DNA of 64,000 nucleotides from Nautilia profundicola AmH (GTDB lineage Bacteria; Campylobacterota; Campylobacteria; Campylobacterales; Nautiliaceae), in NCBI RefSeq assembly GCF_000021725.1, contig NC_012115.1, positions 452,501-516,500 on the forward strand, written 5' to 3'. Positions 53,167 through 62,702 of this stretch are shown one piece after another. Under the pieces are notes generated by a model, which searched no databases, had not been told where the DNA came from, and was given only the letters and a program-made list of their open reading frames with translations. Positions within the stretch are counted from its first letter, which is position 1; every line of letters starts with the position of its first letter. The translations under genes and the position numbers were made by a program.

Positions 53167-53460
53167 ATGAGAGGATTAGAAGCACTTGATTTTTTCCTTG
53201 AAAACTGGCATTCAAAAATGAGGGAATTTGAAGAATTTTGCGAATTTGATGCTATGCTTGAGTACCATTTCGGAAATGAAACGAAAATTTATAATGCACC
53301 GGTTATTATAGAAAAGTTTTTTGAAAGAAAAATTACGTTTAACGGTATTGAGGAAATAAACGAGTTTTTGCCAGAAGAAGTTGAGTTTGACCCGGCAAGT
53401 GGAAATCTTTATATAAAAAGAAACTTGTTTGAAATTAAAATAGCTCCTAAAATTTATTAG
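53167..53460 (+). CDS. Small hypothetical protein (97 aa)
   Basis: No family recognised. It is a small acidic alpha/beta protein, with MRGLEALDFFLENWHSKMREF at the start and FDPASGNLYIKRNLFEIKI at the end. A strong AAAGGAGGGGAAA site precedes the ATG, supporting translation. The stop overlaps the hypA stop by 4 bases. Confidence 0.55.
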   Translation: MRGLEALDFFLENWHSKMREFEEFCEFDAMLEYHFGNETKIYNAPVIIEKFFERKITFNGIEEINEFLPEEVEFDPASGNLYIKRNLFEIKIAPKIY

Positions 53461-53816
53461 GAGTCTTCTTCGTCTGTTTCCAGTTCCATAGACATTAAAT
53501 ACATGTCTTCACCATCTATGATTTTAATATGTGGAGAATTACAGTGCGGGCACAGATACTCATCTTTTTTTAATTCACTCGTTTTTCCGCAATCTTTGCA
53601 CTCTACTACCACAGGTTGTATATGCATTATGAATTCAGCATTTTCACACATGGTCCCTTCTTTAAATGTTTCGAATGCTGTTTTTAAAAGATCCGGTTCA
53701 ACACCGCTTAATATACCTATTTTAATTTCAAGTTTTGTTACAAATTTAGCATTGTGTTTTTTAGCATTTTCTTCCGCTAATTGAAGTAAAGAGTCTACGA
53801 TTGAATATTCATGCAT
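53457..53816 (-). CDS. hypA: Hydrogenase nickel-insertion protein HypA
   Basis: Delivers nickel to NiFe hydrogenase large subunits. The 119 residues begin MHEYSIVDSLL, with the nickel-binding MHE, and carry a zinc site CKDC...CPHC near residues 73-91. An acidic tail (ELETDEEDS) follows. It opens the hydrogenase region on the opposite strand. Confidence 0.94.
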   Translation of the reverse strand: MHEYSIVDSLLQLAEENAKKHNAKFVTKLEIKIGILSGVEPDLLKTAFETFKEGTMCENAEFIMHIQPVVVECKDCGKTSELKKDEYLCPHCNSPHIKIIDGEDMYLMSMELETDEEDS

Positions 53817-53927
53817 GGAAAATCCTTTAATTATTGTAAAAAAAATGTACTTTTTTATAATAAAAAGTTATTGTGAAACGATATCTTTATGAAATTATAT
53901 TATAATAATAGAAAAAAAGGCGTAAAA

Positions 53928-54509
53928 GTGAGTAAAGAAGAAAAAAAAGAATTAATAATGAAAACGGCTCTTAATCTTTTTGCCAAGCAGGGTTTTTATA
54001 ATACAACGATTGCGGATATTGCAAAAGAAATGGGAATGAGCGTCGGGAATATGTATAATTACTTTCCTTCTAAAGAATCACTTGCGAAAGAACTTTTAAT
54101 CTATACTTCTAAAAAATTTGGAGATGAAATTAGAAAAATCAACGAAATGGATATATCAAGTAAGGAAAAAATCAAGAAAATAGTTGAACTATATTTTAAT
54201 ATGGCGCTTAACGAGCCCGAGCTTGTTGATTATTTTATGAGAGTATATTTATCAAATAAAGAAATTTTTGCAAACGGTTGCGAAGGAATGCTTTGTGTAT
54301 CGGCATTTGTAACTGAAATAATGATCTTCTTTGAAGAAGGGGTTAGAAAAAAAGAATTGAAAAATCAGGACTTTTTTGCGGCATTCGGTCTGTTTATGGG
54401 GTACGTAGGCGGACTTGCCTTTTTAAATAAAGAAGGTATCCTTTCAAAACCTCTGCTTGAATATGTTGAGCCTGTAAGTGAGAATATTTACAATGCTCTC
54501 AAAGCTTAA
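53928..54509 (+). CDS. TetR-family transcriptional regulator
   Basis: A 193-residue regulator. The N-terminal helix-turn-helix is clear: ALNLFAKQGFYNTTIADIAKEMGMSVGNMYNYFPSKESLAKE. The C-terminal half is a helical ligand domain with two Cys (NGCEGMLCV). The GTG at 53928 with AAAAAAGGCG upstream is preferred to an ATG at 53889, which lacks a ribosome site. Its end overlaps the hydrogenase small-subunit gene by 17 bases, so the two are co-transcribed; the ligand is unknown. Confidence 0.85.
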   Translation: MSKEEKKELIMKTALNLFAKQGFYNTTIADIAKEMGMSVGNMYNYFPSKESLAKELLIYTSKKFGDEIRKINEMDISSKEKIKKIVELYFNMALNEPELVDYFMRVYLSNKEIFANGCEGMLCVSAFVTEIMIFFEEGVRKKELKNQDFFAAFGLFMGYVGGLAFLNKEGILSKPLLEYVEPVSENIYNALKA

Positions 54510-55359
54510 TGTTATATGGATTGACGCTGTAACTTGTTATGGTTGTACACACTCTTTTTTAAACTATAAAGAGATTTCTTCTCTTTTTGAAAAAGTTAAT
54601 TTCGAATATCATCCTCTTTTTCTTTCTAATGATTTGGAAATAAAACAATGTGATTTATTAATAGTTGAAGGTGCTTTAAAAAACAATTATCCAAGACTTG
54701 GCTATTCATTAAATGAACTTATTTCCAAACTTTTTTTTAAAGCAAAAAAAGTACTTGCTCTTGGTACATGCGCAGTATACGGAGGAATGTTTGGTGAAGG
54801 CCTTATGTATAATAAAGAACAAAAAGGTCATTATTATAAATGTAGAGATAAAATAATAAATCTTCCCGGGTGTCCTCCTCATCCTGACTGGATCGCATTT
54901 GTATTGGATATGATCAGTGAAAATAAAAAAATTGCACTTGATGATTTAAATAGACCCAAAGATATTTTTGCTTACACTTCACATATGGGGTGCACAAGAA
55001 ACGAATATTTCGAATGGAAAATTGATGCAGAAAATTTCGGAACTAAAGAAGGGTGCCTTTTTTATTTTCAAGGTTGTCAAGGCCCTTTTACACATAGTAG
55101 TTGCAATAAAGTACTTTGGAATGAGGTAAGTTCCAAACCAAGAGCCGGAACTCCTTGCTTTGGGTGTACTGAACCTAATTTCCCTAAAAATGACCTTTTT
55201 AAAACCGATACTTTCATGGGAATACCTGCAAATATTCCTTTAGGTGTTAGTAAAAGAGCGTATTTAACTTTGAGCGGAATAGCAAAAAGTCTCAATAACG
55301 AAAGATTAAGTTGTAAACTTATAAATTATAAATGCGGGGATAATAATGAAGATAAATAA
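54493..55359 (+). CDS. Cytoplasmic NiFe hydrogenase small subunit (group 2-like)
   Basis: The 288 residues have no twin-arginine signal and no membrane tail. All cluster ligands are visible: proximal CYGC at 15-18, GTCAVYGG and LPGCPPHPDW; then HMGC, EGC, QGC, SSC and PCFGC for the distal and medial clusters. It is therefore a complete electron-transfer subunit kept in the cytoplasm, like HupU sensors or soluble uptake enzymes. The ATG at 54493 is favoured over a GTG at 54478. It is coupled to the TetR gene before and the large subunit after. Confidence 0.82.
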   Translation: MLSKLNVIWIDAVTCYGCTHSFLNYKEISSLFEKVNFEYHPLFLSNDLEIKQCDLLIVEGALKNNYPRLGYSLNELISKLFFKAKKVLALGTCAVYGGMFGEGLMYNKEQKGHYYKCRDKIINLPGCPPHPDWIAFVLDMISENKKIALDDLNRPKDIFAYTSHMGCTRNEYFEWKIDAENFGTKEGCLFYFQGCQGPFTHSSCNKVLWNEVSSKPRAGTPCFGCTEPNFPKNDLFKTDTFMGIPANIPLGVSKRAYLTLSGIAKSLNNERLSCKLINYKCGDNNEDK

Positions 55360-56509
55360 AAAAATAATAAATAAAATCGAAGGAGAAGCAACTTTAAAAA
55401 TTGAAGGTGACAAAAAGATTGATTTTGTTCAGATTGAGTTTTGGCAATATCATGGAATTGAAGAATATTTGAAAAATAAAAACTATATGGATGCATTGGT
55501 TATCAATCCCAGAGTATGCGGGATTTGCGGTCATTCTCATTTACATGCTACAGTAAAAGTCATTGAAAAAGTATTTAAAGCGAAAATTTCTAAAAAAGCG
55601 CAGATTTTCAGGGAAGTTACATCTCTTCTCGAGATTGTGGAAAATCATATAAAATGGTTTTATATTACAATATATCCTACACAAATAAAAGATAAAGAAT
55701 ACTTATTTAAAGCTGTTAAGTTTTCATCAAAAATATCAAAAGCAATAGCGATCCTTGCAGGACAGTTTCCACATAATTCGTATATGGTACCGGGCGGAGT
55801 TACATGTGATCCTACATATATGGAAATAATGCGTTTAAAAGATCTAATTAAAGAAATAAAAGAAGAATATATTAAAGAAATTATGGATGAGAATTTAACT
55901 TCTCACGATTTAGAAAGGTTTTTTGAGAATCTTCCAAAAGATATTGGAAAAAGTTTGAATAAATTTTTAGTTCTCGGTGAATCAAATATTTTTAAAAGTA
56001 ATGGTGATTATAAAAATGTAAAAGAAGAAAGAAATAAATCGTTAAGTAAAAATGCTTTATATAATAATGAATATTACGAAGTTGGGCCTTTGGCAAGAAT
56101 GATAATCAACAAAAACAAAAATATAAAAAAAATTTATGATATTTACTCAGATTCAATATATACACGTATGTGTGCAAGGATATATGAACCTTTATTATTA
56201 CTCGATTATATAGAACAGAAATTAAGTGAAGTGGATTTATGTGAACCGTCATTTTTAAAACCAAATGTAAGAAACGGTAAAGCAATAGTAGCTGTAGAAG
56301 CTCCAAGAGGAAGTCTGATTCACGAAATTTCAATTAAAAACGAAAAGATTGATTATTATAATATTGTCGTACCTACTCAATTTAACCTCGCTTCATCTAC
56401 TAAAGAAAATCCTTCACCTGCACAAGCGGCGCTTATGAATGAAGATATTGCTTATGTTGACTCCGTTTTTAGATGCTTCGATATTTGTGCCGTTTGTATG
56501 TCTCATTAA
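55346..56509 (+). CDS. Cytoplasmic NiFe hydrogenase large subunit, no C-terminal extension
   Basis: The 387 residues are short for the family (usually 450-600). Both nickel-ligand motifs are present: RVCGICGHSH near residue 56 and CFDICAVCMSH, which is the very end of the protein. EAPRGSLIHEI and GPLARM are also conserved. Because nothing follows the final His, no maturation protease cut is needed, as known for H2-sensing HupV/HoxC proteins. A group 2d-type soluble enzyme giving reductant for CO2 fixation is the main alternative. The start overlaps the small-subunit gene by 14 bases. Confidence 0.82.
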   Translation: MKINKKIINKIEGEATLKIEGDKKIDFVQIEFWQYHGIEEYLKNKNYMDALVINPRVCGICGHSHLHATVKVIEKVFKAKISKKAQIFREVTSLLEIVENHIKWFYITIYPTQIKDKEYLFKAVKFSSKISKAIAILAGQFPHNSYMVPGGVTCDPTYMEIMRLKDLIKEIKEEYIKEIMDENLTSHDLERFFENLPKDIGKSLNKFLVLGESNIFKSNGDYKNVKEERNKSLSKNALYNNEYYEVGPLARMIINKNKNIKKIYDIYSDSIYTRMCARIYEPLLLLDYIEQKLSEVDLCEPSFLKPNVRNGKAIVAVEAPRGSLIHEISIKNEKIDYYNIVVPTQFNLASSTKENPSPAQAALMNEDIAYVDSVFRCFDICAVCMSH

Positions 56510-56540
56510 AAAAGAATAGTATAAAATTTTTTTATATCTA

Positions 56541-56570
56541 TTGAAAAATGAATATTTATTTATGTATAAT
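56541..56570 (+). promoter_or_regulatory. Promoter of the hydABC operon
   Basis: TTGAAA (56541-56546), an 18-bp spacer and TATAAT (56565-56570), 33 bp before the hydA ATG, with a strong GGAGGG ribosome site. Confidence 0.7.
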
Positions 56571-56603
56571 TAACACTGAGCAAATTTATTTCGGAGGGAC
56601 AAA

Positions 56604-57737
56604 ATGAATGAAGCAACTTTACAAAAAGTAAAAGAGAGAATAGAAGCTCTCAAAAAACTTCCGGGAATGGGAGAGAAAAGCGTTTCTAAAATGCTTGAAG
56701 ACAGTGGATTTACAAGAAGGGATTTTCTAAAATGGTCTGCAGCAATGGCTGCAATGTTAAGCCTTCCAACATCTTTTACACCGCTAATCGCTGAAGCGGC
56801 AGAAGTTAGTGACAGACTTCCTGTTATTTGGTTAAATATGGCGGAATGTACCGGATGTAGTGAAAGTTTAATTAGAAGTGATGCTCCAACAATTGACAAC
56901 TTAATCTTCAATTATATCAATCTTCAATATCATGATACTATCATGGCAGCAGCCGGATGGCAAGCTGAAGAAAACTTAAAAGAAGGTATGGAAAAATTCA
57001 AAGGTAGATATATCCTTTGTGTTGAAGGTGGTATCCCTACAAATATGGACGGACAATATTTAACTATGGGACCACATGCTGAAACAGGACTTGAATTATT
57101 AACAAGAGCTGCAAATGATGCGGCTGCAGTAATTTCTGTTGGTACTTGTTCAAGCTTCGGTGGTATCCAAGCTGCAGCACCAAACCCAACAGGGGCAAAA
57201 GGTGTATATCAAGTAATTAACAAGCCAGTAATTAACGTACCTGGATGTCCTCCAAGTGCTAAAAATATTGTTGGTACAATTCTTTATGTAATTCTTTTCG
57301 GTGCTTTACCTGCAGTTGATAACTTCAACAGACCTAAATTTGCATACGGATTAAGAATTCACGATCTTTGTGAAAGAAGAGGGCACTTTGATGCAGGTGA
57401 ATTCGTAGAACAGTTCGGTGATGCGGGTGCTGAAAACGGATTCTGTTTATATAAAGTAGGATGTAAAGGTCCTTATACATTTAATAACTGTAGTAGAGAG
57501 AGATTTAACCAGCATACATCTTGGCCGGTTCAAGCAGGACACGGTTGTATCGGATGTAGTGAACCTGATTTCTGGGATTCTATGGCTCCGTATGAAGAAC
57601 CTCTTGCAAACAAAAAATATGATTCACCGCTTGCTGATGCAACAGCTGATAGTTACGGTGTAACAATTTTAACAGTAGCTGGTGTGGCAATTGCAGCACA
57701 TGCAGCACTTAGCGCAATTAAAAATCCTAAGGAGTAA
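56604..57737 (+). CDS. hydA: Membrane-bound uptake NiFe hydrogenase small subunit HydA
   Basis: Iron-sulfur subunit of the periplasmic H2-oxidising enzyme. The 377 residues have a long N-terminus with twin-arginine motif TRRDFLKW at about 37-44, cluster ligands CTGCSES, GTCSSFGG, VPGCPPS, then HDLCERRGHFD, CLYKVGCKGP, NCSRERF and GCIGCSEP, and a C-terminal membrane anchor (VTILTVAGVAIAAHAAL). It matches group 1 enzymes such as that of Wolinella succinogenes. Confidence 0.95.
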   Translation: MNEATLQKVKERIEALKKLPGMGEKSVSKMLEDSGFTRRDFLKWSAAMAAMLSLPTSFTPLIAEAAEVSDRLPVIWLNMAECTGCSESLIRSDAPTIDNLIFNYINLQYHDTIMAAAGWQAEENLKEGMEKFKGRYILCVEGGIPTNMDGQYLTMGPHAETGLELLTRAANDAAAVISVGTCSSFGGIQAAAPNPTGAKGVYQVINKPVINVPGCPPSAKNIVGTILYVILFGALPAVDNFNRPKFAYGLRIHDLCERRGHFDAGEFVEQFGDAGAENGFCLYKVGCKGPYTFNNCSRERFNQHTSWPVQAGHGCIGCSEPDFWDSMAPYEEPLANKKYDSPLADATADSYGVTILTVAGVAIAAHAALSAIKNPKE

Positions 57738-57740
57738 TAA

Positions 57741-59480
57741 ATGGCAAAAAGAGTAGTAATTGACCCGATAACAAGAATCGAAGGTCACTTGAGAGTTGAA
57801 GTAGTTGTAGATGAAAACAATAAAATTACAAACGCTTTCTCAAGTGCGACACTTTGGAGAGGTATAGAAGTTATTCTAAAAGGAAGAGATCCAAGAGATG
57901 CAGGATTTATGACTCAAAGAATCTGTGGGGTATGTACATATTCTCACTACAAAGCTGGTATTACAGCTGTTGAAGATGCATTAGGAATCAAACCTCCACT
58001 AAATGCATTACTTACAAGAACATTAATGGATTTCGCACTATTTTTCCATGATCATATCGTTCATTTTTATCAACTACACGCACTTGACTGGGTTGATATT
58101 ATTAGTGCACTTAAAGCAGATCCTAAAAAAGCAAGCGAAGAAGCATTCAAATATGTTCCAAAAGGATACAACCCGATTGCAACTGGTGAAGACGAATTAA
58201 GAGAAGTTCAAAAGAGAGTATCTAAATTCGCTGAAAAAGGTGACTTAGGACCGTTTAAAAACGGATACTGGGGACACAAAACTATGAAATTTACACCTGA
58301 GCAAAACCTAATTGCTCTAAGCCATTATTTAAAAACACTTGAAATGCAAAGAATTGCAGCTCAAATGATGGCTATTTTCGGTGGTAAAAACCCACATCCA
58401 CAAAGTTTAACTGTTGGTGGTGTTACTTGTGTTATGGATTTACAAGATCCTGCAAGACTTGGAGAATACCTAACTAAATTCCAAGAATTAGCTGATTATG
58501 TAAACAGAGCATATTATGCAGATATCGTAATGGCTGCAAGCGCATACGGTACTGAACCAAGTGTTGTTCAAAAAACAAACCTTGGTAATTTCCTAACATA
58601 TAAAACTATGCAAACAGGGCCAAATTCTTGGTTATTTGATGCTTGTGGTTATATTAAAAACCATGACTTAACTAAATTCTATGAAATTGATGAAAGCAAA
58701 ATTACAGAAGAAGCAACACACAGTTGGTACAAAAACCTTGATAATCCTACTCATCCATATGATGAAACAACTGAACCTGAATATACAGGATATGTAGAAG
58801 GTGAAAGTGTAGACGGTCAAGGAAATATCGTTAAAACTAAAGTTGTTAACGAAAAAGGTAAATATTCTTGGATTAAATCACCAAGATACAATGAAGAGCC
58901 AATGGAAGTTGGACCGCTTGCATGTATGGTAGTTAACTATGCGGCAGGTAACAAAAAAGTTCAAAAAGTTGTAAATGAATTCTTAGCTCAAACTGGTCTT
59001 CCTGCAGAAGCACTATTTACAGTACTTGGAAGAACAGCAGCGAGAATGTTACAAACTAAAACAATTGCTGATTACGGTTTAGAGGCATTCAACAACTTAG
59101 TTGAAAACCTTAAAAAAGATCAAACTACAGTTGCGCCATATGTAATTGATGAAACTAAAGAATATAAAGGTAGATTCATCGGTGACGTTCCAAGAGGTAT
59201 GTTATCTCACTGGTGTAGAATTAAAAACGGAAAAATCGAAAACTGGCAGGCTGTAGTTCCATCTACATGGAATGCAGGTCCGGAAGACGGTAGAGGTAAA
59301 AAAGGTGCATATGAAGCAAACCTAATCGGTATGACTTTAGCTGATCCAGCAAAACCTCTTGAAGTAATCAGAAGTATTCATTCATATGACCCATGTATTG
59401 CATGTGCGGTTCACGTAATGGATGTAAAAGGTAAAAAATTAGGTGAGTTTAAAGTAGATCCGCTATATGGCGCATGTTAA
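57741..59480 (+). CDS. hydB: Membrane-bound uptake NiFe hydrogenase large subunit HydB
   Basis: NiFe active-site subunit. The 579 residues carry RICGVCTYSH near residue 58 and DPCIACAVH near the end, followed by a 21-residue tail (VMDVKGKKLG...) that the HydD protease would remove. DVPRGMLSHW is also conserved. Codon use favours highly expressed-type codons as in hydA. It is exported with HydA through the Tat system. Confidence 0.96.
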   Translation: MAKRVVIDPITRIEGHLRVEVVVDENNKITNAFSSATLWRGIEVILKGRDPRDAGFMTQRICGVCTYSHYKAGITAVEDALGIKPPLNALLTRTLMDFALFFHDHIVHFYQLHALDWVDIISALKADPKKASEEAFKYVPKGYNPIATGEDELREVQKRVSKFAEKGDLGPFKNGYWGHKTMKFTPEQNLIALSHYLKTLEMQRIAAQMMAIFGGKNPHPQSLTVGGVTCVMDLQDPARLGEYLTKFQELADYVNRAYYADIVMAASAYGTEPSVVQKTNLGNFLTYKTMQTGPNSWLFDACGYIKNHDLTKFYEIDESKITEEATHSWYKNLDNPTHPYDETTEPEYTGYVEGESVDGQGNIVKTKVVNEKGKYSWIKSPRYNEEPMEVGPLACMVVNYAAGNKKVQKVVNEFLAQTGLPAEALFTVLGRTAARMLQTKTIADYGLEAFNNLVENLKKDQTTVAPYVIDETKEYKGRFIGDVPRGMLSHWCRIKNGKIENWQAVVPSTWNAGPEDGRGKKGAYEANLIGMTLADPAKPLEVIRSIHSYDPCIACAVHVMDVKGKKLGEFKVDPLYGAC

Positions 59481-59490
59481 GGAGTGAACC

Positions 59491-60183
59491 ATGAAATTTT
59501 TAAAACCAATGGGAGAATATCTGGGAGGAATTGAGTTTTCTGCCGGGTATAGATGGCAGCACTGGATAAGGGCAATTTCAATCTTTGCTCTTATCGCAAC
59601 AGGATTTTATATTGCAAATCCTTTTATTACATATGCAAATGTGTCGCCTGAACCTACAAGATTTTTACAGGCATATTTAAGAGAATGGCATATTATTTTC
59701 GGTTTTGCAATGATAGGTGCCGTTTTATATAAAACGTTTTTCTTTTTCTTTTTCAGAGAAGGAAAATACGAAAGAGCTTCACTAAAGGATGCGTTTAATA
59801 TTAAAGTGGCTCTCCAACAAGTTGGATATTATCTATTAATTGCAAAACACCCACATACAAAAGGTGTTTATAACCCGTTACAATTCTGGGCGTATAGTAT
59901 GCTTTATGTATTTTTCTACGGAATTATTTTAACAGGGCTTGCACTTTATGCTGAAGTGTATCATAACGGACTTGGAGCGTTTTTCTATCCGTTAGCTAAA
60001 TCTGTTGAAACATTCTTTGGAGGATTGGCATACGTAAGAATCTGGCATCACATTTTCATGTGGGCTATTATTGTAGTAGTATTCATCCACATTTATATGG
60101 CTGTATATAATGCAGTATTTGGTAAAAACGGTGGTATGGATGCGATTTTCTCAGGAATGAAATGGGAAAAAGAAGACCATTAA
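59491..60183 (+). CDS. hydC: Hydrogenase cytochrome b subunit HydC
   Basis: Anchors HydAB and passes electrons to quinone. The 230 residues have four hydrophobic segments (for example AISIFALIATGFYIANPF and IFMWAIIVVVFIHIYMAVY) and His residues for two haem b groups (YRWQHW, EWHII, RIWHHIF, FIHIY). It follows hydB by 10 bp. Confidence 0.94.
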   Translation: MKFLKPMGEYLGGIEFSAGYRWQHWIRAISIFALIATGFYIANPFITYANVSPEPTRFLQAYLREWHIIFGFAMIGAVLYKTFFFFFFREGKYERASLKDAFNIKVALQQVGYYLLIAKHPHTKGVYNPLQFWAYSMLYVFFYGIILTGLALYAEVYHNGLGAFFYPLAKSVETFFGGLAYVRIWHHIFMWAIIVVVFIHIYMAVYNAVFGKNGGMDAIFSGMKWEKEDH

Positions 60184-60313: not shown

Positions 60314-60892
60314 ATGAAAATATTAGTTTTAGGTATAGGGAATATTCTATTCGGAGATGAGGGAATAGGTGTGCATTTGGCAAATTTTATTGATGAAAAA
60401 TATGAGTTTAAGGGTCCTCATCAGGTAGATATAATTGACGGCGGAACTCTTGCTCAAAGACTGATACCGATTATTACGGATTATGATAAAGTGTTTATTT
60501 TTGACTGTGTGGATGTCGATGAAGCAAATATAGGGGATGTGTATTTCTTTGATTTCAGAGATGTGCCTGAGTGTGTGAGCTGGCAGGGAAGTGCACATGA
60601 AGTTGAAATGCTTCAAACTCTACAGATGATTGAAATGATGGGTGACTTGCCTGAAACTAAAATTATCGGAGTAGTTCCTTACGTAATCGGTGAAGATACT
60701 ACGTTTAGTATAACTCCGGAAGTACAAAAAGCTGCAAAACTTATGGAAAAAATACTTATTAATGAGATTAAAAAGTTAGGTGTTGAACCTGTTGTTAAAA
60801 ACGAGAAAGTAACACTTACACAAGTTGCCAAAGATTCGTATAAAAGAGGGGTGCCTGAAGAGTCTCTAAGAGGAATGGAAGTAAATAATTAA
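60314..60892 (+). CDS. hydD: Hydrogenase maturation endopeptidase HydD
   Basis: Cuts the C-terminal tail of HydB after nickel insertion. The 192 residues show GIGNILFGDEGIGVH with the nickel ligand Glu16, FIFDCVDVDE (Asp64) and GSAHEVEM (His95). The C-terminus carries an extra 40 residues rich in Lys and Val. Confidence 0.92.
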   Translation: MKILVLGIGNILFGDEGIGVHLANFIDEKYEFKGPHQVDIIDGGTLAQRLIPIITDYDKVFIFDCVDVDEANIGDVYFFDFRDVPECVSWQGSAHEVEMLQTLQMIEMMGDLPETKIIGVVPYVIGEDTTFSITPEVQKAAKLMEKILINEIKKLGVEPVVKNEKVTLTQVAKDSYKRGVPEESLRGMEVNN

Positions 60893-60968: not shown

Positions 60969-62702
60969 ATGGTATTAAAATTTATTTTTGAATTGGAAAG
61001 TAATAACGGAGTAATAGAAAAAATACTTTTAAGAGTGGCGGACAGATTAAACGTAAGAATAGGCTTAAGCAGGGATTTGAAAAACTTATACGCTTTTATT
61101 GACGGTAACGAAGAAGATATTGAAAATTTTTCAAGAGAACTTTCACATGAGCTTCCTTTGAGTATTTATCTAAAATCACTGAATGCTGAAGTAGTAGAAG
61201 AGTTTAAGGATGATTTAAACAGAGAATTTCCTGAGATAAATCTGCCTCCATGTCCTAAATGTTTGAGTGAAGTAAAAGATCCTGAAAATGAAAATTATTA
61301 TAATCCTTTTCATCACTGTGAGGTGTGCGGATATCGTTTAAGTGAAAAGTTAACAGTGAAAAATGAAAAGTGGAAAGAAAAATTTGTAGATTTGGCTGAC
61401 AAACTTAAAAGTGAAGGCAAAATTTATATTCAGACAATGAACGGAAAGTTTGAAGTTTCTACGAACCTTGAAGATGCCGAGCAGATAGTTGCAGTCGATC
61501 TGGCGGCTGTAGCAACGTATTTTATGAGTTTTGAAGGGGATGCTAAAGCACTTGGAAGTATTGAAAAACCACTTGTAAACTTAAAAACAAATCTTAATTT
61601 TAAAAAAGAATTCGGGCTTTCCAATCCAGCATATTTTGTAAAACTTCCTGATTGTATGGTGCTTGAACTATTATGTGAGGAGATTAAAAGCGATATAAAA
61701 CTTTTAGGACTTAAAAAAACTGAAAAAAGCGATGATTTTTCATTTGAGGTTCCAAATAAAGATGAAATTCCTGTAGCAGTTGTTACCGATACGAAAAATC
61801 ACGATATTTTAATCGCAAAGGGTGAAAGAAGCTTGCTTCCTAAATTTGAAAAATATTTAGGAAAAGATCTAATCGGATATAACGCTAAATATATCGCTTC
61901 ATCAAATGAAAACAAAACTGTTATATATAAAACCGATGAAGAAAAAGAATCAAATGTAAATCTTCCGTTTGCCGGGTATTTCGGTGTGATGAACCAGTGG
62001 GATCTGGAAAATAAGGTTACTATGGGATTTGCGTTTTACAAAGAAGATGAAAATAAAATCATGATGAATTCACCGAAATTCGGACTTGTTGAATATATTG
62101 ACTTTGAATTTAAATTTGAAGACTTTAATGAAATATTTGCGACTATTAAAGTTATGAACGAAACGGGTGAAAAACTTGTCGAAAACTTTAAAAATAAAGC
62201 TCCCGAACTTTTTGAAAACGCTATTAAAGCAAGTCTTGATACTAAAAAGAAAGGAATTGCCTATTTATGGGGGTTAATCGGGATAGTTTTAGGGTTTGCA
62301 GACAATGTCGACGATGCGTATGAGAAACTGCTTGTTTACGCGAACTCAGCAATGGCTAAAAAAGGTCCGAGAATCGATTATAAAATGAAAGATAAAAACC
62401 TTGATCCATTATGGGCGATAAGAACGGCAATGAGCTTTAAACTTGCGGGAGTTGATAACTATTTACTCAGTTTCGGTGTGCTTGAGAGTTTTGCTGAATT
62501 TTTAAGCAATACATACGAAACTGTGGATAAAGAATCTCCGCTAAACGGAGCTGTTATTGTAGGGGATCTTTTTGAGGGTGAATTTTTAAATAAAATTTAT
62601 ACAAACATTAAGAAAAACTTCCCGACTTTCACACCAAAAGCACTTCCTATGAACGGAGCCATCGAAGCATTCGGAAGTGCTGTTATCCTTAGTAAAAGTT
62701 AA
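60969..62702 (+). CDS. hydE: Hydrogenase accessory protein HydE (Campylobacterota type)
   Basis: A 577-residue protein needed for hydrogenase activity in relatives (Wolinella HydE, H. pylori HP0635); the biochemical role is unsettled. Visible: a zinc-finger pair CPKC...CEVCGYR near residues 96-120, like that of HypF, then a long region that resembles the HypF/Kae1 fold (VAVDLAAVATYFMSFEGD, IAYLWGLIGIVLGFADNVDDA). At residues 127-135 (VKNEKWKEK) the DNA matches the simple repeat of the window. Not the unrelated FeFe-hydrogenase HydE. Confidence 0.82.
   Translation: MVLKFIFELESNNGVIEKILLRVADRLNVRIGLSRDLKNLYAFIDGNEEDIENFSRELSHELPLSIYLKSLNAEVVEEFKDDLNREFPEINLPPCPKCLSEVKDPENENYYNPFHHCEVCGYRLSEKLTVKNEKWKEKFVDLADKLKSEGKIYIQTMNGKFEVSTNLEDAEQIVAVDLAAVATYFMSFEGDAKALGSIEKPLVNLKTNLNFKKEFGLSNPAYFVKLPDCMVLELLCEEIKSDIKLLGLKKTEKSDDFSFEVPNKDEIPVAVVTDTKNHDILIAKGERSLLPKFEKYLGKDLIGYNAKYIASSNENKTVIYKTDEEKESNVNLPFAGYFGVMNQWDLENKVTMGFAFYKEDENKIMMNSPKFGLVEYIDFEFKFEDFNEIFATIKVMNETGEKLVENFKNKAPELFENAIKASLDTKKKGIAYLWGLIGIVLGFADNVDDAYEKLLVYANSAMAKKGPRIDYKMKDKNLDPLWAIRTAMSFKLAGVDNYLLSFGVLESFAEFLSNTYETVDKESPLNGAVIVGDLFEGEFLNKIYTNIKKNFPTFTPKALPMNGAIEAFGSAVILSKS

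Follow-up and report, generated by a model that had tools for sequence, protein, structure and literature searches.

In the genome of Nautilia profundicola (1,676,444 bp), three overlapping genes, tetR, huaS and huaL, encode a TetR-family regulator and the two subunits of a cytoplasmic [NiFe] hydrogenase (Table 1). They lie within the window, i.e., the 64,000-nucleotide stretch analyzed here, which corresponds to positions 452501-516500 of the chromosomal contig (G000:C1). The tetR open reading frame spans 53889-54509 and matches PF00440 (E=4e-16), and its start was assigned to the GTG at 53928 by the N-termini of the orthologues. The overlap of huaS with tetR is 17 nt, and that of huaL with huaS is 14 nt. 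HuaS lacks a signal peptide; its FeS ligands are C15/C18/C93/C127 (proximal cluster), C204/C222/C225 (medial) and H164/C167/C188/C195 (distal). HuaL ends in DICAVCMSH directly before the stop codon, i.e., at the last His of the CxxCxxH motif. In all these respects, namely the three overlapping genes, the signal-less small subunit and the 387-residue large subunit with its exact terminus, a preliminary description of the locus proved correct.

On one side of the module is hypA, which in the Nautiliaceae diverges together with tetR from a compact common promoter region. An inverted repeat between these two genes in this family, CCTTTTTTT...AAAAAAAGG, was considered as an operator and rejected, as it consists simply of two divergent ribosome sites. 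On the other side is hydABC, the membrane uptake hydrogenase operon, whose promoter does adjoin the module, as had been claimed, with a TTGAAA, an 18-bp spacer and a TATAAT. In the N. profundicola genome paper, GAmH_0548/0549 is listed as a 'sensing (Group 2)' hydrogenase adjoining the membrane uptake operon GAmH_0551-0556 (PMC2628731). Farther downstream, at 60969-62702, the window encodes a conserved protein of 577 aa that matches the HypF zinc finger only weakly and is located 3' of hydD in many TetR-positive loci.

Table 1. Features of the tetR-huaS-huaL locus and the adjoining hydrogenase operon, in window coordinates.
Feature	Position	Strand	Description	Basis
hypA	53457..53816	-	divergent from tetR	PF01155, synteny
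tetR	53928..54509	+	TetR-family regulator, 193 aa from GTG	PF00440, orthologue alignments, AlphaFold2 model
huaS	54493..55359	+	cytoplasmic [NiFe] hydrogenase small subunit, 288 aa, ATG start	PF01058 and PF14720, alignment
huaL	55346..56509	+	large subunit, 387 aa, no cleavable tail	PF00374, alignment, tree
hydA promoter -35	56541..56546	+	-35-like TTGAAA	sequence
predicted TetR operator	56549..56562	.	TGAATATTTATTTA, one mismatch to TGAATN4ATTCA	PWM
hydA promoter -10	56565..56570	+	-10-like TATAAT, 18-bp spacer from -35	sequence
hydA	56604..57737	+	group 1 membrane uptake hydrogenase small subunit; predicted target operon	ORF, literature operon GAmH_0551-0556
hydB	57741..59480	+	large subunit with tail	ORF, PF00374 684.7 bits
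hydC	59491..60183	+	cytochrome b subunit	ORF, synteny
hydD	60314..60892	+	maturation protease, HyaD/HybD-type	TIGR00140 above cut-off

HuaSL resembles the regulatory hydrogenases HupUV/HoxBC of group 2b in that it is a cytoplasmic, signal-less dimer encoded next to its presumed target, the uptake hydrogenase, and HuaL, like HupV/HoxC, has the Ile of CGIC and lacks a cleavable tail. The missing tail, to which the preliminary description had drawn attention, is not a chance feature: each of the 32 complete orthologues examined terminates at CxxCxx(H/Q/K), and two HupV sequences also end at the His. In L059, L064, L066-L068 and L239 this last His is Gln or Lys, which is unusual for a [NiFe] active-site motif. 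HuaL is nevertheless distinct from group 2b. In that group, a bulky Ile and a bulky Phe narrow the gas channel, whereas in HuaL the Ile is present but the second position is T/V/S/I/L; the protein is also shorter (383-448 aa, versus 479-487 aa in the two HupV). In a tree with two HupV (2b) and two group 2a-like sequences, HuaL forms a clade of its own, with 100/100 support, apart from all four; it does not group with HupV/HoxC, represented there by only the two HupV. Moreover, the conserved neighbor at HuaSL loci is TetR rather than a PAS histidine kinase and an NtrC-type regulator. This module includes a putative one-component TetR repressor, whereas HupUV/HoxBC act with the HupT/HoxJ kinase and the HupR/HoxA NtrC-type activator. 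HuaSL is not a member of the group 2b family, although its system would work in a similar way.

As a cytosolic two-subunit enzyme without a signal peptide, HuaSL shares the features of group 2d, to which the cytosolic hydrogenases of Campylobacterota have been assigned (PMC5401914, PMC12286921). In the literature, the HuaSL/HupSL proteins of this phylum go under the names group 2d or H2-sensing group 2; group 2d also holds Hase III of Aquifex aeolicus. Neither the assignment to group 2d nor the conjecture of H2 sensing is new to the literature (PMC2628731, PMC5401914). The earlier statement that the small subunit has all FeS ligands is valid for the Nautiliaceae but not for the other families examined, where the alignment shows the proximal motif CxGC as CNGN, the second Cys being Asn. 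This replacement was rejected as a mark of a sensor, as a group 2 enzyme on a Bacteroidota plasmid also has CSGN. Some Campylobacterota (G168 and G091; loci L244 and L245) encode a second group 2 hydrogenase, with a tail, a protease-like gene, a CSGD proximal motif and no TetR partner.

The association between TetR and HuaSL was first assessed in a set of 60 relatives. Every close orthologue of the large subunit is accompanied by a TetR orthologue, adjoining unless the contig ends. Of 80 named loci, for which the contig scan retained Campylobacterota only, 74 have TetR ahead of the small subunit, and in the remaining six either the contig begins inside the operon or no small subunit was found upstream. 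Across 259 genomes of the order, with no overall correction of the counts for phylogeny, TetR and the large subunit are both present in 119 and both absent from 132, while seven have TetR alone and a single genome has the large subunit alone, at a contig edge. The TetR-hydrogenase pairing first noted at this one locus is thus conserved across the whole order. Because hydA is common in genomes without the pair (it is present in 204 of the 259), TetR tracks HuaSL and not hydABC; and because presence and absence both occur inside several genera, joint gain or loss of the pair has occurred several times. Three contigs from metagenome-assembled genomes (L112, L120 and L125) have a large subunit without a small subunit upstream, and we treat these as rearranged or split operons; in one of the three (G056), TetR is on another contig. 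In two genomes, G233 and G157, TetR is retained along with its Cys pair and the operator described below, but HuaSL is missing. At least there, TetR can act without HuaSL; that is, regulation of hydA by TetR does not always depend on the hydrogenase. The whole tetR-huaSL-hydABC module is also found on a plasmid of Sulfurimonas paralvinellae (L238; NZ_CP041407.1, 49,811 bp), beside a site-specific integrase. A 2021 comparison reported this species to be without a group 1 hydrogenase (PMC7952632), perhaps because the plasmid was left out of account.

A candidate operator was derived by dyad counting from tetR upstream sequences only, taken from 73 loci outside the Nautiliaceae. The dyad TGAA-N6-TTCA stands out (z of 9.9, versus shuffled maxima of up to 4.8), and the corresponding symmetric model is TGAAT-N4-ATTCA. 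Upstream of tetR itself, this model is found in about 14 loci, mostly of Sulfuricurvum; general autoregulation of tetR was rejected, as these sites are mainly confined to Sulfuricurvum and a few others. When 1.6 Mb of loci were scanned with the model, the matches were mostly just upstream of hydA, in every gene arrangement, including divergent ones. A score of at least 13, attained by 0.3% of shuffles, is reached upstream of hydA in 86 of 92 TetR-positive loci outside the Nautiliaceae, versus none of 30 loci of TetR-minus genomes (Fisher 6.5e-23, with no correction for phylogeny). Within genus g24, hydA scores are 14.0-19.8 with TetR, versus 6.1 and 8.6 without it; within genus g13, they are 20.9 with TetR, versus -1.8 to 2.1 without it. 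Second hydA copies in six TetR-positive genomes score from -6.5 to 1.2. In the Nautiliaceae the operator is degenerate, with scores of at least 10 in 8 of 16 loci and of only 3.9 in L046; in G006, a member of this family without TetR, the hydA score is -7.6. The window site, also degenerate, scores 10.8, versus a 99% shuffle limit of 9.7, and this predicted operator falls inside 56510-56603, the region where binding of TetR had been proposed. TetR-minus genome G105 retains a perfect 14-mer (score 12.4), perhaps a remnant. The expectation of a TetR site near hydrogenase promoters is thus borne out at the level of prediction: the putative operator is well supported, and occurs at hydA almost only where TetR exists. 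Judged from these sequence patterns, TetR very likely controls hydABC.

In most families the palindrome starts right after the -10 element, across the expected transcription start. In most Nautiliaceae, a variant, TGAAT-N4-ATTTA, is found between -35 and -10, as is the predicted operator in the window. Either location is typical of a repressor site. Another recurrent element, a TTTAAGTT box, precedes the -10 by about 10-15 bp in the hydA promoters of L055-L151; it may be the site of a second regulator or a feature of this promoter class.

A search of 120 whole genomes for the exact 14-mer TGAATGATTATTCA gave 21 sites, of which 18 precede hydA (13), NicO-type nickel transporters (three), hypB (one) or CbiM (one), the other three being elsewhere. 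Weaker sites in other loci are likewise upstream of NicO, CbiM and hypB. Because the predicted site is present at both hydA and nickel genes, hydrogenase and nickel uptake would be under one switch. We found no description of this TetR operator, or of a hydABC/nickel regulon, in the literature searched. Such a target set could also reflect a regulator of nickel or cofactor status that matches hydrogenase synthesis to nickel supply. A nickel sensor, however, normally regulates nickel uptake and nickel enzymes in opposite senses, whereas here both are under one repressor-type site, and the near-absolute pairing with HuaSL would be left unexplained. We consider this reading improbable; a common switch fits better with a command to make hydrogenase now than with nickel homeostasis. 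The N. profundicola genome was also searched for sites by pattern. A strong palindrome, TGAATTATAATTCA, lies in the region separating the gene for a Crp-like regulator from its divergent neighbor (G000:C1:518187-518200, or L193:7185, and L196:4755), and is conserved in two Nautilia species; it may be a site of TetR or of the Crp-like regulator itself.

TetR has the helix-turn-helix of its family (TetR_N, PF00440) and, in the AlphaFold2 model (pLDDT 87.4) and by fold search, an all-helical ligand domain. It is more conserved than either hydrogenase subunit, with identities across families of 59-66%, versus 36-43% for the large subunit and 45-57% for the small one. Strong conservation extends to the ligand domain, a part that normally varies among TetR proteins; this domain includes two cysteines that are invariant in 43 orthologues, Cys118 (54279-54281) and Cys123 (54294-54296). 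These form a Cys-x4-Cys loop, modeled with low confidence, between helices 6 and 7. Among the closest solved folds is FadR, of Bacillus halodurans and B. subtilis (TMq 0.72-0.81). Both proteins have a PF00440 helix-turn-helix and a short palindromic operator, predicted in the case of this TetR; however, they are only about 20% identical, this TetR stands apart by its strongly conserved ligand domain with the Cys-x4-Cys loop, and there is no sign of an acyl-CoA pathway for it. The half-site of Bacillus FadR is TGAATGA. Its likeness to the palindrome argues against attributing the latter to another regulator, e.g., of the Crp/Fnr type with 5-4-5 half-sites, with only an indirect association with TetR. 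Although the spacing is like that of Crp/Fnr sites, TGAATTATAATTCA precedes the Crp-like gene of Nautilia, and G105 has the site without a TetR orthologue, the motif was first found at tetR promoters, and inside single genera the site is lost along with TetR. This attribution therefore appears very improbable.

The computation yields a conserved three-gene module, a predicted operator with a dependence on TetR, a repressor-like position of that operator and a coherent set of targets. From these features we infer that TetR would bind TGAAT-N4-ATTCA across the hydABC core promoter and repress it, and in relatives would do the same at hypB and nickel-transporter genes. The tail-less, cytoplasmic HuaSL would turn over or bind H2 at a low rate, and hand the signal to TetR, through either direct contact or the transfer of electrons to the invariant Cys-x4-Cys loop, such that in the presence of H2 the repressor would let go. 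We thus lean towards tetR-huaS-huaL being a hydrogen-responsive switch for the uptake hydrogenase. On balance, HuaSL would be the supplier of the H2 signal to TetR, considering the near-obligate pairing, the lack of a tail, the poor evidence for bulk catalysis and the target set. The results point to a short and previously undescribed route of H2 sensing via TetR in Campylobacterota, those of vents included. More tentatively, this may be a one-step sensor from H2 to the promoter, widespread in Campylobacterota, in which HuaSL electrons from H2 reduce or reshape the Cys-x4-Cys of the DNA-bound TetR dimer, with no kinase and no second messenger, and thereby control hydrogenase and nickel supply. 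Against a hydrogen-responsive switch are the two genomes with TetR but no HuaSL, the degenerate site of the Nautiliaceae, the absence of the gas-channel Phe of regulatory hydrogenases, and data from Sulfurospirillum multivorans, where expression of hydB is constitutive, H2 making no difference, and hupL is nearly silent (PMC5357620). Constitutive hydABC would follow if TetR were not expressed in that organism.

Whether the cytoplasmic group 2d hydrogenase of Campylobacterota is a sensor or a ferredoxin-reducing enzyme has been argued since about 2007. Published views differ (PMC5401914 and PMC10052474, among others), and a 2017 study stated that almost nothing was known about hydrogenase gene regulation in Epsilonproteobacteria (PMC5357620). 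According to the second position, HuaSL would be a working hydrogenase that gives low-potential electrons, e.g., to ferredoxin and the reverse TCA cycle, while TetR would be a local co-regulator of HuaSL and hydABC whose own Cys loop reads a different signal (redox, thiol or metabolite). Electron supply has been proposed for group 2d (PMC5401914), and also for Sulfurimonas denitrificans and S. multivorans; the complete cluster ligands of N. profundicola HuaS, and the two genomes where TetR and operator remain without HuaSL, are consistent with it. Nevertheless, in Arcobacter butzleri hDNRA1 grown with H2, both hynAB sets are upregulated 2.3-6.2-fold and huaSL is lowered (PMC12286921); measurements in S. 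denitrificans showed no soluble H2 uptake despite transcription of huaL (PMC4149538); Hase III of A. aeolicus is difficult to detect and has been suggested to be regulatory (PMC10052474); and HuaSL without TetR is seen in only one of 120 genomes, at a contig edge. The working-enzyme proposal thus seems unlikely to us. The A. butzleri data fit the H2-sensing model; those from S. multivorans do not. For the latter, an earlier study had pointed out a TetR gene ahead of hupSL and proposed it as a possible hupSL repressor (PMC5357620); this is the same gene pair, but the main targets predicted here are instead hydABC and the nickel genes.

With a defined regulator, a predicted operator and a list of targets, this dispute becomes directly testable. 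If H2 sensing through TetR is true, it would represent an H2 sensor simpler than HupUV/HoxBC, usable also as a genetic part.

Other TetR genes are found near hydrogenases. TetR paralogues, 39-47% identical and with altered Cys spacing, are downstream of some hydABC clusters (L097:17288-17884, L139:830-2027 and G042:C3:112905-114081). On a plasmid of Runella slithyformis (L240), two TetR genes precede a group 2 hydrogenase with a tail; the nearer one matches this TetR in the helix-turn-helix only, and was rejected as its counterpart. The occurrence of TetR beside a hydrogenase may have more than one origin.
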